Positions 4,651 to 41,143 of a stretch of DNA of 64,000 nt are shown here, piece after piece. The translations under genes and the position numbers were made by a program. The stretch covers positions 744,001-808,000 of the forward strand of contig NZ_CP035730.1 in NCBI RefSeq assembly GCF_012222305.1. The letters are read 5' to 3'. The notes beneath the pieces were generated by a model. That model saw only the letters and a list, made by a program, of their open reading frames with translations, searched no databases and was not told the DNA's origin. Source of the stretch: Sulfolobus sp. S-194 (lineage in GTDB: Archaea > Thermoproteota > Thermoprotei_A > Sulfolobales > Sulfolobaceae). The stretch's first letter is position 1. Each line of letters opens with the position of its first letter.

Positions 4651-6288
4651 ATGCGAGCCATATTAGATGATAGGAACTTACTTTCAGCTGAAGATGCATT
4701 AAGAGTTTTCATTAATGAAACTTCTCCTAAGCCCATTGGAGTGGAGGAGGTTGACATACTAGATTCATTAAATAGGATTTCTGCTGAATATGTTTTTTCC
4801 CCAATTAACTTACCTCCATTTTCAAGATCCACTGTTGATGGTTATGCTATAATTGACTCAGAAACTCCAGGAGAATTTACTATAATTGATAAGATTAGTA
4901 TAGGAGAATATAAGGAGATTGAAATAAAAGATAAAGAAGCCGTAGAGGTTGATACAGGCTCTATAATTCCAGAAAACGCTACAGCTGTAATTAAGGTCGA
5001 AGAAACTGAAAGGAAAGGAGATAAAATCTTTATAAATAGAAAAGTGAAATTTGGGGAAAATATTGGATTTATAGGAAGCGATATTCCTAAAGGGTTTGAA
5101 ATTTTAAGGCCAGGAGAAATCATTAAAGCTGAAAAAATAGCTCTTTTAGCTTCTGTTGGAATAAACAGAGTAAAAATATTTAAAAGACCTAAAATTTATA
5201 TAATAACTACTGGAGATGAACTAACAGAACCAGGAAAGCCTTTACAGAAAGGAAAGATTTATGAATCTAATTCATTTTATCTTTATGCTAAACTAAAATC
5301 AGAAGGATACGAAATTATTGGATATACTCATGTAAGGGATGATAAGGAATTAATTAAAGAAGAGTTACTTAAAGGTTTAGATTTGGCCGATGTTGTGATA
5401 TTGACTGGAGGTACAAGTGCTGGTGAGAAGGATTTTGTTCATCAAGTAATCAAAGAATTAGGTAAAATTATTGTTCATGGATTAAAGTTTAAACCAGGGA
5501 AACCAACAATTTTAGCTACCGTAAAAGGGAAAGCAGTGATAGGTCTTCCTGGCAATATTGTTTCAACAATAATGATAACTGAAAGGGTAATAAATAAATA
5601 TCTCTCAATAATGGCTGGAAAAGAATTAACAGACGAAATTAAAGTTAAAGCAATATTGCTAAACGATGTAAAAGCTGATAAGAACCGTTATACTTATCTT
5701 CCAGTATATTTGTTTAAAAAAGATGAAAAGTACTTTGCTTTAAGTATACCCTTTGATAGTTATATGATAGGAACTTTTTCAATGGCTGATGGTTACATAG
5801 GTCTTGAGCCGGCTGAAGAGCATAAAGAGGGAGAAGAAGTTTATGTACATTTAAAGAGATTAGATTTAAGACCTACCTATATAGGAGAAGAGGAACCTAC
5901 ATTACTTAAATTATTTTCAGAATTTAGAAAAATTCCCTTAGGTTCTTACCCAGCATTAAAAGCTCTTAAATACGGAATCGGTGACGTTATCGTAATTAGT
6001 AGTCTTTACGATAGCTCAATAGCTGGGGAATATATGTATAGGAGAAAAATATTACAGAACGGTGAGGGAGAAAAAATTGTGGGATATTATGATTGGATTG
6101 GATTAAGCAGAATAGTCCAAAATTCTTCTATAAAATTACGCTATCCATCTTTATCTTCTAATTTTGTTGGTAAAGCTACAGTAATAGCACCAAACACTAT
6201 TATCAACGAGGGTAAAGAAATTGGTGAAGAAAAGCTGATCATTGTTTGTAAAGATGAATATAAATCAAAACTTAAAACTCTATCTTAA
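4651..6288 (+). CDS. moeA: Molybdopterin molybdotransferase MoeA with C-terminal substrate-binding-like domain
   Basis: 545 residues. The MoeA core (about 1-400) has the PPFSRSTVDGYA motif (55-66), TTGDEL (186-191) and the MPT-binding TGGTSAGEKD (252-261), ending in the domain IV beta barrel. MoeA inserts molybdate or tungstate into adenylylated molybdopterin. From about residue 405 a second domain follows that resembles the periplasmic-binding-protein-like tail found in archaeal MoeA fusions. It is only about 140 residues, which looks shorter than usual. The start is the ATG after a T-rich, TATA-like tract. The organism needs this for its Mo hydroxylase (subunits at 54317-55680). Confidence 0.9.
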   Translation: MRAILDDRNLLSAEDALRVFINETSPKPIGVEEVDILDSLNRISAEYVFSPINLPPFSRSTVDGYAIIDSETPGEFTIIDKISIGEYKEIEIKDKEAVEVDTGSIIPENATAVIKVEETERKGDKIFINRKVKFGENIGFIGSDIPKGFEILRPGEIIKAEKIALLASVGINRVKIFKRPKIYIITTGDELTEPGKPLQKGKIYESNSFYLYAKLKSEGYEIIGYTHVRDDKELIKEELLKGLDLADVVILTGGTSAGEKDFVHQVIKELGKIIVHGLKFKPGKPTILATVKGKAVIGLPGNIVSTIMITERVINKYLSIMAGKELTDEIKVKAILLNDVKADKNRYTYLPVYLFKKDEKYFALSIPFDSYMIGTFSMADGYIGLEPAEEHKEGEEVYVHLKRLDLRPTYIGEEEPTLLKLFSEFRKIPLGSYPALKALKYGIGDVIVISSLYDSSIAGEYMYRRKILQNGEGEKIVGYYDWIGLSRIVQNSSIKLRYPSLSSNFVGKATVIAPNTIINEGKEIGEEKLIIVCKDEYKSKLKTLS

Positions 6289-36670: not shown

Positions 36671-37216
36671 TTATAAATCTTTGCTTAAAACCTGTTCGAT
36701 TATCTGTTTAGCTATTTTTAGTTTGTTTCTTTTAATCCAGTTAGCTGGTAAATTCTGTTCATAATAAGGTTTTGAATATTTTCCTACATAACCAGAGTCA
36801 AAGTCCATTCCATAAAGCACAATTTCTTTAGCTTTGAAGAGTTTTGCTAAAATTACAGCTCTATCTCCATCAGTAAATCCACCGAATAAATGAATATTTC
36901 CAAAGGGGAAAACTTGTGCTGAACCTATGACAATTTTCATATTATCTACCTTGTATAATTTGCTAATATTATCACCATGTGCATGAACTACGTAAATTGA
37001 TTCTTTTGGAAATGAAGAAATTCCATCTAAATCAGTTACAATTATATCTGGAATGATCCCACGTTCATATAAGTAATTGGTTGCTCCATCTGCTGAAATA
37101 ACTAAATCTTCATTAATTTCATTTACAGATAATAGATTAGGACCGGCACCTACAACTGCTACTCTTTTATCTCTAATAATATTAAGTTTCTCTACGAAAT
37201 CGTTTTTTATTTTCAT
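36671..37216 (-). CDS. mptE: 6-hydroxymethylpterin diphosphokinase, MptE-like
   Basis: 181 residues. [13 protein letters not shown] at the N terminus, [25 protein letters not shown] and a metal-binding [14 protein letters not shown] match the MptE/DUF115 family, which activates 6-hydroxymethyl-dihydropterin with ATP in archaea lacking bacterial FolK. Pterin-locus neighbours (PTPS at 38857 and DHPS-related at 39626) support the role. The start at 37216 precedes the 75-base gap to the next gene. Confidence 0.85.
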
Positions 37217-37290: not shown

Positions 37291-37485
37291 TTAACCAGTA
37301 GTAAGGATCTTGAAATATACTACATCACCTTCATCTTTTATAATTTCAATTTTAAAGTTATTCTTAATATATTGAAAATAAGGATTATTTTTAGATATTT
37401 TATAGACAATATTTTCATTAGGAAAAAGTGCATCAATCACATTTGAACCGCAGATGTCTTTATCCAAATCAACTGTGAAACTCAT
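37291..37485 (-). CDS. Small hypothetical protein of the pterin/HEPN region
   Basis: 64 residues from the ATG at 37485, which overlaps the HEPN stop by 17 bases; a longer 72-residue version starts at 37509. Not recognised. Two or three strands and one helix are plausible. The segment [12 protein letters not shown] faintly recalls the KEOPS subunit Pcc1, too weak to call. It is the last gene of the operon that starts with the degenerate nucleotidyltransferase. Confidence 0.5.
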
Positions 37486-37879
37486 CAAATACATTATTGG
37501 CAAGTTCAAATATTTCTTCTAATTCCTTTATCAATCCTTTTGCTTCAAAATTTCTTATAATCACAGAATCCTTAAATGAAGATTCATCAAGCAAAGTTAA
37601 AGGATATAGTTTTTCCTCCATGAGTTGAAGCCTTCTAACTAAAGCTATTTCTTTTTCTTCTGTTAACTTTGAAAGAATTAAGTTAAGTTTCTGTGACGTA
37701 TGTTCTTCTAGTGAATAATAACCATAAAGTGCTAATAGTGCTTTACTTAGATTCTCTACAAAATTGTAAGAGTTATCTAAGGTACCTACTAGGTCTCCTT
37801 CTTCTAATGAAGTTTTAGCTTGTTTTAAATATCTAAAAGCGTTGCTTAGATATTCAGATGATAGTGCGCTATTATTCAT
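37469..37879 (-). CDS. HEPN-domain-like protein
   Basis: 136 residues, all helical. The run AFRYLKQAKTSLEEGD followed by NSYNFVENLSKALLALYGY and EEHTSQKLN matches the HEPN helix pattern. The Rx4-6H catalytic motif that toxin HEPN RNases use near the C terminus is not present. The start overlaps the stop of the nucleotidyltransferase-like gene (ATGA at 37876-37879), the standard arrangement for HEPN/MNT pairs. A non-catalytic, housekeeping or scaffold role is therefore more likely than a toxin. Confidence 0.65.
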   Translation of the reverse strand: MNNSALSSEYLSNAFRYLKQAKTSLEEGDLVGTLDNSYNFVENLSKALLALYGYYSLEEHTSQKLNLILSKLTEEKEIALVRRLQLMEEKLYPLTLLDESSFKDSVIIRNFEAKGLIKELEEIFELANNVFDEFHS

Positions 37880-38334
37880 AATTCAATCACCTCACCCTTA
37901 TTTATTTCGCCCATTTTTAAAACACGATTAATATTAACTATATTGATTTTTCTTGCTTCTTTTTCTATTAATTTTTCCTTATCAAATATAATCTTTCCAC
38001 TAGTTAATAAATATAAGACTATTGGGTTATGGAAAGATAGTTCTGAAGGATCAAGAATTATAAAATAAAGAAGAGGTCTTTGTCCGTATCTTTTTACGTA
38101 TTCGAAATAATTTTCTATTTGCTCAATCTTTTTTATGAAATACTCAGCTATTTCCTCTCTGGCATAAAATGAAATCTTATGGACTTTTTCTAAGATTAAT
38201 AAGATTAAAAGAGCTTTTTTCTCGTCCAAAGTATCTATAGCTTCTCCGCCTATTACTATGCCTTTCAACTTCTCTCCATAATGATCAAGTATTTTTTCAC
38301 TTAAACTCTGAATTAAATTAAGTAAGGACTTCAT
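37876..38334 (-). CDS. Degenerate minimal-nucleotidyltransferase-like protein
   Basis: 152 residues. The N-terminal KGIVIGGEAIDTLDEKKALLI sits where MNT antitoxins have GSxARGxxxxxSDxDL; the Ser and the DxD pair are missing, so catalysis is unlikely. The rest is alpha-beta (PLLYFIILDPSELSFHNPIVL). The assignment depends on its overlap with the HEPN-like gene. Its start is only 32 bases from the divergent gene at 38367, so both promoters overlap. Confidence 0.5.
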   Translation of the reverse strand: MKSLLNLIQSLSEKILDHYGEKLKGIVIGGEAIDTLDEKKALLILLILEKVHKISFYAREEIAEYFIKKIEQIENYFEYVKRYGQRPLLYFIILDPSELSFHNPIVLYLLTSGKIIFDKEKLIEKEARKINIVNINRVLKMGEINKGEVIEL

Positions 38335-38366: not shown

Positions 38367-38879
38367 GTGTATGAGTTGATATCTGAATATTTGAAGTATC
38401 CACCTTATGAAGTTTTACCCATACTAGAGTTGAGAATACCGTGTAGTACTCAATGCCTATCTAACTCTAGATATAAACAATTACTGGAAATAGAGGCATT
38501 TAAATCACAATTAGAGGTAATAGATAGTCTTAAAGATTTAATAAAATATAAAATTGAGAATCTTATTGACGAAGTCTCAGTTAGAATATCTAATAGGGAG
38601 AACGTAGATATTAGTTTACTGACTTATTCCGTGTATAAGATTATAGAATTTGGCGGCGATTATCAAATAGGATATGACAATATAGTTTTTGAAAATAAGA
38701 AAATATTTGCTGGTAGTTTCAATGAAATTATGAGATTAAATAAAGAGATAGAAAAAATTCTAACTGATAAGGACGTAAGATCATTATGTGATGAGATAAG
38801 ATATTTAAGTGAATCTACATGGGAACATTTTGACAAAAACATAAGGAGGTCTTTAAATGAAAGTCAAAGTAGGACTTGA
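38367..38879 (+). CDS. Hypothetical protein upstream of the PTPS-like gene
   Basis: 170 residues, GTG start (TTG and others possible). Not recognised. It is helical and charged, with two N-terminal cysteines (PCSTQC, about 25-30) that could bind a metal or Fe-S cluster with partners elsewhere. It overlaps the PTPS-like ORF by 23 bases, so it is likely a partner in the same pterin pathway. Mostly soluble. Confidence 0.6.
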
Positions 38880-39276
38880 AGGATTTTCTTTTGATTCCGC
38901 CCATTATACTTTATCCTCAGAAGGAAATCAACAGATTCATGGACATACATATAGGATTTCTATTGAAGTTGAAGGAGATTCAATAGATGAAAGTACTGGA
39001 TTTGTTATAGATTTTGATATTTTAAAGAAGATAATAAATGATATAGTAAAAGATTGGGATCATAAATTAATAATTCCTTCTGAAGATCTTAATCAAATAT
39101 ACTTTAAAGGTCCGTTTAAACTGGACATAAAAGTCATTCCATATAAATATCCTACAGCAGAATATATCGGATTAGAAATAGCTAAAAGTATATACGAAAA
39201 ATTACAGAAAAAGTATAAAATTACAATAAAAATATATGAAGGAGAAAACAATTATGCAATAATTGAGTATCCATGA
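38857..39276 (+). CDS. 6-pyruvoyl-tetrahydropterin synthase/QueD-like, without the catalytic Cys
   Basis: 139 residues, tunnelling-fold PTPS family. Zinc histidines are in FDSAHYT and IHGHTY. The usual C-x3-HGH motif reads N-Q-Q-I-HGH, so the catalytic Cys position is Asn. The substrate glutamate probably lies in the C-terminal [10 protein letters not shown]. Archaeal variants of this kind have been linked to pterin rather than preQ0 synthesis. With MptE-like and DHPS-related genes near, I read it as a pterin (sulfopterin/folate-type) enzyme. An AAGGAGGT ribosome-binding site precedes the ATG. Confidence 0.8.
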
Positions 39277-39675
39277 CTATTTTATTATAAATCGAAGGCC
39301 AATATTGTCAATAGTTTTACAATTCTCGTCCTTTACTTTTGAAAAACAGATTTTACCATTATCAAAAGAAAAGCATCCGTAAGGATTTTTTAGAAACTTA
39401 TCCAGCTCAAATTCTTCCCCCTTATCACTTACTTTAAAGCAACCTTCTAACTCAACTCTTTCCAAGATAGAGTTAATACTTATAATAACTCCACCATAAA
39501 GAAGGGCAAAGCATTCAGCAAGACTAAAGTCTTTACACGATTCCTCAATATTAAAGGTCTTCTTTAGTCTTTCAAGGAATTCACTTCTTGTTATAAGAGG
39601 GTAAGTTGATATTAGTATACTTATGTTATTTTTTCTTAGTCGTACTATTGTTGGAGTCGATGATATTATATCCAC
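39277..39675 (-). CDS. Hypothetical protein downstream of DHPS-related gene
   Basis: 132-134 residues depending on start (GTG 39675 or TTG 39681). Not recognised. Six cysteines are scattered along it, in ESCKDF, LAECFAL, EGCFKV, YGCFSF, KICFSK and ENCKTI, more than usual for its length. Its start lies inside the DHPS-related gene and its end is one base from the end of the convergent PTPS gene. Possibly a small subunit or an uncharacterised pterin enzyme. Confidence 0.55.
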   Translation of the reverse strand: MDIISSTPTIVRLRKNNISILISTYPLITRSEFLERLKKTFNIEESCKDFSLAECFALLYGGVIISINSILERVELEGCFKVSDKGEEFELDKFLKNPYGCFSFDNGKICFSKVKDENCKTIDNIGLRFIIK

Positions 39676-41143
39676 GCACAAATAAAGGTTCGTCTTGTAT
39701 ATAATTTTTATCTAACTTAAACGCTAATTCAGCCTTAGCTAGCTCATATCCTATATACAAACTATGCTCATTATTAATATCCTTCTTCAGTTCTATTAAT
39801 TTTCTACCTATACTAAGCCCATTTGTTCCAGATATCTTAATATTTTCGTTTCCCTTCCATTCAAGATAGATTTTATCAGCCACTTTTATGATTACAAATC
39901 CTTTATCCATGTTTTTAGGTTCTATATGTTCATTAATAAACAAATAATCTTCTGGGTTTCCAATTTTTTCTTTTATCCTCTTTTTATCTTTTAATATTAG
40001 AAGATCTAAACCTAAATCTTTTGGCAAACTTTTTCTATGTAGGGATACACTAATCATTTTGGTAGCTATGTTTACTTCATAAGAACTCCAACGAGTCTTA
40101 CCGTGTTCCATTATCAGTAAGTTTCCAATTTTAAGCTCGCCAGCTATTGCTGTTAATAATGCATTAACACCTATACTATCTACATCTATTAGCTCAGTAA
40201 CATTAAGTATTCCCATTAGCATAGGAGCATCTGTAAGGTCTCTTATTTTTTTGTATTCAAAAATACTATCAACCAGTCCAACCATTGGTGGCGAGAGGAT
40301 AGGGTCTAATATCAGTTTCTCAAATCCTATCTCCTTTGCTTTCCTATATAGATTAAAAGTAACATTAGCTCTATTTTCAATAGAAAGAGGTGCAACTACG
40401 AATGCTTTATCTTTTATTACGGCGAGTTCATTTATATTATCCTCATTAAGATTAAATATAAAATCTGCACCAGCTTTTGCTCCCTCAATAAGCTCTTTAG
40501 TTGAGGCTGAATCAATACCAACAATGTATCCTTCATCTATGAATTTAGTAACTTTCTTTCTTACTTCATCTAAATCCTCATGGCCATTAGGAAATCCTAA
40601 TACGATTACATTAACGTAATTTGATACCCTTTTAGCTTCTTCTAGCAGAAACTCTATATCTTTGCTTGCATCAACTTCTATAAATATTCTAAAGGGAGGA
40701 GGATATCTCGGTATTTTTAATCCATCTATCTCAAATGCAAAATCGCCTTTTTCCTCTAATTCCCTTAAGATCTTTTCTATGTCATCCTCTTTCTTTTTCT
40801 TCAGTATAGTATCAGCTGGATAAATCGTAGATAAAGTTTCACCTTTTGAAAGAGCTTCTATTACTCTAGGAATATCCCTGTAGTCTTCGCTACCCTTATA
40901 CGTTTTAACCTTTGTTACTTCTTGTATTTTTTGTGCATCACCACTAGCTAAACCAGGAATAATAATGTAATCGTAATCCTTAAGTGATATGTTCTTTAAG
41001 TTTTCTGCTATATAATCTACTGTCATTAATGAAGCAATGGGGTAATTAAGTGCAATAACATCAGCCTTTACATCTTTCAATTGGTTTGCAATTTCTTTTA
41101 CGCTCTCGTATGCTAATTTTCCGGTTACTAGTAACACTTTCAC
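39626..41143 (-). CDS. Dihydropteroate synthase-related protein
   Basis: 505 residues. N-terminal 150 residues form a separate domain of unknown function; the middle carries a TIM-barrel similar to DHPS (FVAPLSIENRAN, LILDPILSPPM, and MGILNVTELIDVDSIG, the last echoing the MGxxNvTPDSF motif with LIDVDS in place of PDSF). This architecture is the archaeal DHPS-related family. It probably condenses a pterin diphosphate with an aromatic amine or another ring, but the altered motif could mean a different substrate. The C terminus is unrecognised. Confidence 0.78.
   Translation of the reverse strand: MKVLLVTGKLAYESVKEIANQLKDVKADVIALNYPIASLMTVDYIAENLKNISLKDYDYIIIPGLASGDAQKIQEVTKVKTYKGSEDYRDIPRVIEALSKGETLSTIYPADTILKKKKEDDIEKILRELEEKGDFAFEIDGLKIPRYPPPFRIFIEVDASKDIEFLLEEAKRVSNYVNVIVLGFPNGHEDLDEVRKKVTKFIDEGYIVGIDSASTKELIEGAKAGADFIFNLNEDNINELAVIKDKAFVVAPLSIENRANVTFNLYRKAKEIGFEKLILDPILSPPMVGLVDSIFEYKKIRDLTDAPMLMGILNVTELIDVDSIGVNALLTAIAGELKIGNLLIMEHGKTRWSSYEVNIATKMISVSLHRKSLPKDLGLDLLILKDKKRIKEKIGNPEDYLFINEHIEPKNMDKGFVIIKVADKIYLEWKGNENIKISGTNGLSIGRKLIELKKDINNEHSLYIGYELAKAELAFKLDKNYIQDEPLFVRGYNIIDSNNSTTKKK

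Follow-up and report, generated by a model that had tools for sequence, protein, structure and literature searches.

A cysteine-free PTPS-fold protein of Sulfolobaceae predicted to form 6-hydroxymethyl-7,8-dihydropterin

The 64,000-nucleotide stretch of Sulfolobus sp. S-194 DNA analysed here (the window) contains, at 38857-39276, a gene for a PTPS-type protein that lacks the cysteine of the active-site motif, which raises the question of what product such an enzyme would make and by what chemistry. The protein belongs to the COG0720/PF01242 superfamily, as it carries the three zinc histidines and the Asp-His pair and matches PF01242 with E = 1.1e-22 (80.7 bits against a cut-off of 22.4). A fold search with its AlphaFold model (pLDDT 95) retrieved solved PTPS proteins at Z 15-16, the top match being the Plasmodium PTPS (Z 16.2), which was best or tied-best within the tie range. 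No cysteine is present anywhere in the 139 residues, and only one of the 29 Sulfolobaceae orthologs has a single Cys, located in a helix. The Cys-free gene is under strong purifying selection, with a dN/dS of about 0.06-0.08 within the genus; since the motif Cys is moreover absent from 29/29 family members, the cysteine-less motif is not the result of chance or error.

An active site outside the PTPS signatures

The gene and the residues on which the argument turns are the following, all on the + strand:

38843..38850, +: AAGGAGGT, a ribosome-binding site 6 nt ahead of the PTPS ATG, read from the sequence
38857..39276, +: PTPS-fold protein (COG0720/PF01242) of 139 aa without Cys; predicted substrate dihydroneopterin triphosphate, predicted product 6-hydroxymethyl-7,8-dihydropterin
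38902..38910, +: H16-Y17-T18, the first zinc His followed by YT
38926..38946, +: N24-Q25-Q26-I27-H28-G29-H30, the variant signature [ND]xQ[IL]HGH in place of CxxxHGH
39058..39063, +: D68-H69, corresponding to the catalytic Asp-His pair of PTPS proteins; invariant in the 29 orthologs
39160..39162, +: E102 of a T-x-E motif, invariant
39238..39240, +: E128, invariant in the 29 orthologs

Up to the zinc-binding HGH the protein reads S20-S-E-G-N24-Q25-Q26-I27-H28-G29-H30. A preliminary description of this locus had noted N-Q-Q-I-HGH in place of the Cys motif and the retention of both zinc histidine sites. We confirmed both observations: in an alignment with related CMNLHGH/CENLHGH proteins N24 falls in the column of their Cys, and the zinc ligands H16, H28 and H30, present in the window protein, are invariant in the 29 orthologs. 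The same description had left to an alignment the question of whether the Asn is fixed, and it is not; position 24 is D in 16 orthologs and N in 13, implying that the constraint is 'Asp or Asn' and not Asn. Within the motif [ND]-x-Q-[IL]-HGHTY Q26 is invariant, and position 25 is variable (S, D, Q, N, A or E, with E in 2/29). The motif substitution is therefore old and stable in Sulfolobaceae. As for the remaining invariant residues, we take D68-H69 to have the catalytic role that this pair has in other PTPS proteins, and E128 occupies the position of the Glu that anchors the pterin in PTPS.

The loss of the textbook catalytic Cys could mean that the protein is a catalytically dead or non-enzymatic paralog. 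This idea is hardly credible: the protein is the only PTPS of its genome, its zinc ligands, D68-H69, E102 and E128 are all invariant, and the gene evolves at the low dN/dS given above (0.06-0.08). Two substitutes for the missing residue were also considered and rejected. Catalysis by a shifted Cys was ruled out for the window protein, as it has no Cys, and a nearby Glu of the Plasmodium type was ruled out by the variability of position 25.

Three signatures divide the family, C-x3-HGH for PTPS-I (QueD), C-x5-HGH for PTPS-II (classical PTPS) and E-x2-HGH for PTPS-III (PMC5041015), so that the C-x3-HGH previously cited as the family motif is correct for QueD but not for classical PTPS. None of the three occurs in the window protein. 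Where PTPS-I has CxxxHGH it reads NQQIHGH, and its score with the QueD model TIGR03367 (68 bits) falls below the cut-off of 89.25, as does its score with the NCBIfam PTPS/CTPS subfamily model with respect to the cut-off of that model. The residue at the Cys position of the PTPS-II signature, CxxxxxHGH, is E22 (P, Y or K in orthologs), and that at the Glu position of the strict PTPS-III signature, ExxHGH, is Q25. The context is nevertheless that expected of PTPS-III, namely a pterin pathway setting with MptD/FolB replaced. As the strict ExxHGH is lacking, we regard the protein as one that would work like PTPS-III, without filing it as a strict-signature member. Nor is it an MptD (COG2098), since it has a PTPS domain instead of PF04038.

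In a tree of 89 PTPS proteins the 29 from Sulfolobaceae grouped together (support 96/93), near Cys-bearing relatives, the deeper forks being weak. A contig profile search with a narrow PTPS alignment found seven named loci, mostly from Sulfolobales.

Pterin genes at the locus and across the order

The following genes surround the PTPS gene in the window:

36671..37216, -: MptE-like 6-hydroxymethylpterin diphosphokinase, the next pathway step (PF01973, 6.7e-25; synteny)
37469-37879, -: HEPN-domain protein, overlapped by a 152-residue partner at 37876-38334 (-)
38367..38879, +: ORF170, of a family without a name, with a 23-nt overlap with the PTPS start; upstream of PTPS in 29/29 Sulfolobaceae
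39626..41143, -: dihydropteroate synthase (DHPS)-like protein, the step after MptE (TIGR00284, 1.1e-148; synteny)

The pterin neighbours invoked in the preliminary description are real: the MptE-like and DHPS-like genes flank the PTPS gene, an arrangement shared by almost every Sulfolobaceae locus that was read far enough to show it. In the window's genome FolE is encoded elsewhere than PTPS, within a few kilobases of a beta-RFAP synthase gene; MptA and MptD are absent from this genome, in which no PF04038 was found, and there is a single PTPS copy. In a survey of 147 genomes of the order, 29 of them Sulfolobaceae, all 29 were found to have FolE and one PTPS each without the motif Cys, and to lack MptA and MptD. 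FolE and MptA co-occur in none of the 147 genomes. Pterin-type PTPS (74 genomes) and MptD (21 genomes) likewise share none of the 147 (Fisher 7.6e-8), a p-value that overstates the evidence because related genomes are not independent and shared ancestry inflates the exclusion counts. Furthermore, in nine genomes of two other families (f9 and f10) a related PTPS, carrying CxxxHGH, adjoins mptA with 24-126 bp between the profile matches, and in most of these genomes MptE is also nearby on the same strand. The HYT of the first zinc site was found in 8/9 MptE-adjacent PTPS outside Sulfolobaceae versus 0/15 QueE-adjacent ones (Fisher 1.2e-5, a value likewise overstated by the relatedness of the genomes).

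Together, the neighbours, the absence of MptD, the exclusion of MptD over the 147 genomes and the mptA/mptE operons of relatives support the cleavage product that had been predicted, 6-hydroxymethyl-dihydropterin, which is well supported by context. We therefore consider it highly probable that the window protein is the PTPS-type 6-hydroxymethyl-dihydropterin synthase of Sulfolobaceae, replacing MptD/FolB, with a substrate and a product that we infer. What counts against this pterin reading, by analogy, is the lack of the diagnostic PTPS-III Glu; the Plasmodium PTPS makes 6-hydroxymethyl-dihydropterin using Glu38, and its E38Q variant yields none (PMC2229834).

In the proposed pathway, FolE would convert GTP to 7,8-dihydroneopterin triphosphate, from whose side chain the zinc PTPS would cut the C2'-C3' part to leave 6-hydroxymethyl-7,8-dihydropterin; MptE would then pyrophosphorylate this compound and the DHPS-like enzyme would join the product to an arylamine. 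More tentatively, the proton transfers for which Cys or Glu would serve as base elsewhere might be carried out by the invariant D68-H69 together with hydroxyls of the side chain bound to zinc, and Q26 and N/D24 might shape the pocket. Zinc and D68-H69 are presumably the best candidates for a cleavage free of both Cys and Glu.

The predicted product thus finds support, but the reasoning that led to it, from an Asn in place of Cys to a new chemistry, does not. There are CxxxHGH relatives in a pterin operon and Cys-less PTPS in queE operons, and N and D interchange at position 24; the argument fails because Cys does not separate the pterin and queE roles in this order. The Cys could instead go with the cyclohydrolase: pterin-type PTPS with Cys are accompanied by MptA in 9/11 cases and those without it by FolE or neither in 57/59 (Fisher 4e-8), an association that is a lead only, because f11 and f6 contain exceptions and few lineages are involved. 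A further point against the pterin assignment is that 23 genomes, mostly of f6 (e.g. G005, G027, G051), have MptA but no MptD or usable PTPS, one of them (G135) having a weak sub-threshold PTPS match. This result implies that the order probably has yet another aldolase, which could in principle be present in the window's genome too.

Other genes of the cluster deserve mention. ORF170 stays with PTPS even where the remaining cluster is gone (L054), and its invariant residues are P25-C26-x3-C30 and C141. It gave no Pfam or NCBIfam match, and its confident model (pLDDT 94) no PDB fold match at E<=0.001. In most Sulfolobaceae the HEPN protein and its partner have been retained in the interval separating MptE from ORF170, and the genes at 37469-38334 resemble a HEPN pair that has become a stable part of a metabolic cluster.

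The archaeosine precursor and a possible second product

The window's genome also has QueE, QueC, GAT-QueC and TGT, and this complete archaeosine gene set suggests that its PTPS may well make carboxytetrahydropterin too. QueE is present in 29/29 Sulfolobaceae, each with only a Cys-free PTPS, and 51 of the 52 genomes with QueE have a PTPS. The QueE genomes without a motif-Cys PTPS number 37 (29 Sulfolobaceae, five of f2 and three of f7). A second PTPS acting as QueD was rejected, since none was found by PF01242 in 29/29 Sulfolobaceae, a very remote one aside. Either the single Cys-free PTPS also yields carboxytetrahydropterin, or another enzyme supplies it.

It could be argued that the window protein is nothing more than a QueD (6-carboxytetrahydropterin synthase) whose Cys has been lost, another enzyme being in charge of the pterin step. 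The genome does need a QueD, and QueD is the sole equivalog model approached, though below the cut-off (68 vs 89 bits). We nevertheless judge this quite improbable in view of the pterin gene neighbours, the lack of queE adjacency, the HYT signature, the mptA/mptE operons of relatives and the absence of MptD from the genome.

Far more plausible, although we would give it somewhat less than an even chance, is that one Cys-free Sulfolobaceae PTPS forms both 6-hydroxymethyl-dihydropterin and 6-carboxytetrahydropterin, feeding the tetrahydropterin coenzyme and archaeosine, in which case the active-site Cys would be dispensable for 6-carboxytetrahydropterin synthesis. Such bifunctionality extends our preferred assignment as a 6-hydroxymethyl-dihydropterin synthase and does not exclude it. 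The presence of the archaeosine genes with a single PTPS argues for it, and dual PTPS-I/III enzymes are known (PMC5041015), but these keep CExxHGH. In support of this idea, the two-PTPS genomes of the order (9/9) combine one Cys-type and one Cys-less copy with QueE present and no MptD, which suggests that such cells normally require two products. Moreover, the only PTPS of five f2 genomes is Cys-less and is encoded immediately next to queE; a strand-1 Cys might substitute in these enzymes, however, and the window PTPS has none. Also against bifunctionality, QueE lies far from PTPS in Sulfolobaceae, and preQ0 could be taken up or CPH4 be made by an unrelated synthase.

The single PTPS of L083, L084, L085, L086 and L026, in tight queE operons, has GVGRxxHGHD and a strand-1 Cys but no motif Cys. 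In the second PTPS copies of f8 (L060, L062, L064, L068, L069, L098) Leu replaces the first zinc His, e.g. AALRV for AAHR, with HGH kept. L071 (G111) contains, at 4967-5959, a 331-residue open frame beside queE and queC whose C-terminal PTPS-like part reads KCRATHAH.

The CxxxHGH/ExxHGH signatures for COG0720 annotation fail in this archaeal order, because the QueD Cys can occur in genes adjacent to mptA/mptE and be missing from those adjacent to queE. The origin of the archaeosine precursor constitutes a gap in Sulfolobaceae with their single cysteine-free PTPS; should this enzyme be bifunctional, the part ascribed to Cys in QueD catalysis would have to be reconsidered.

Comparison with known enzymes

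The core finding is already known, since Phillips et al. 2012 (ACS Chem Biol 7:197) reportedly found PTPS-III with variant signature sequences in Sulfolobus and are said to have assigned them to 6-hydroxymethyl-dihydropterin formation; these proteins reportedly share lineage, fold and a variant HGH signature with the window PTPS. PTPS-III enzymes of archaea function in the pathway to tetrahydromethanopterin (PMC5041015).

The solved sequences closest to the family profile are Pyrococcus horikoshii PH0634 and the Plasmodium PTPS. The Plasmodium PTPS-III (1Y13, 2A0S) is the best single-sequence match, but it has Glu38 in ExxHGH where the window PTPS has Q25. PH0634 (2DJ6, 2DTT) is the best family-profile match among solved sequences (5e-21); unlike the window PTPS, it has E at -3 (WEDVHGH), which is the PTPS-III signature, and it is shorter, without the stretch around the GPF motif. 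QueD/PTPS-I (E. coli 4NTK) has the fold, the zinc ligands and the Asp-His pair in common with the window PTPS, whereas its CxxxHGH and queE context are not shared. Finally, MptD (COG2098/PF04038) and FolB are not homologous to the window PTPS at the sequence level; the window PTPS has no PF04038 match, and the product predicted for it is the same as theirs.
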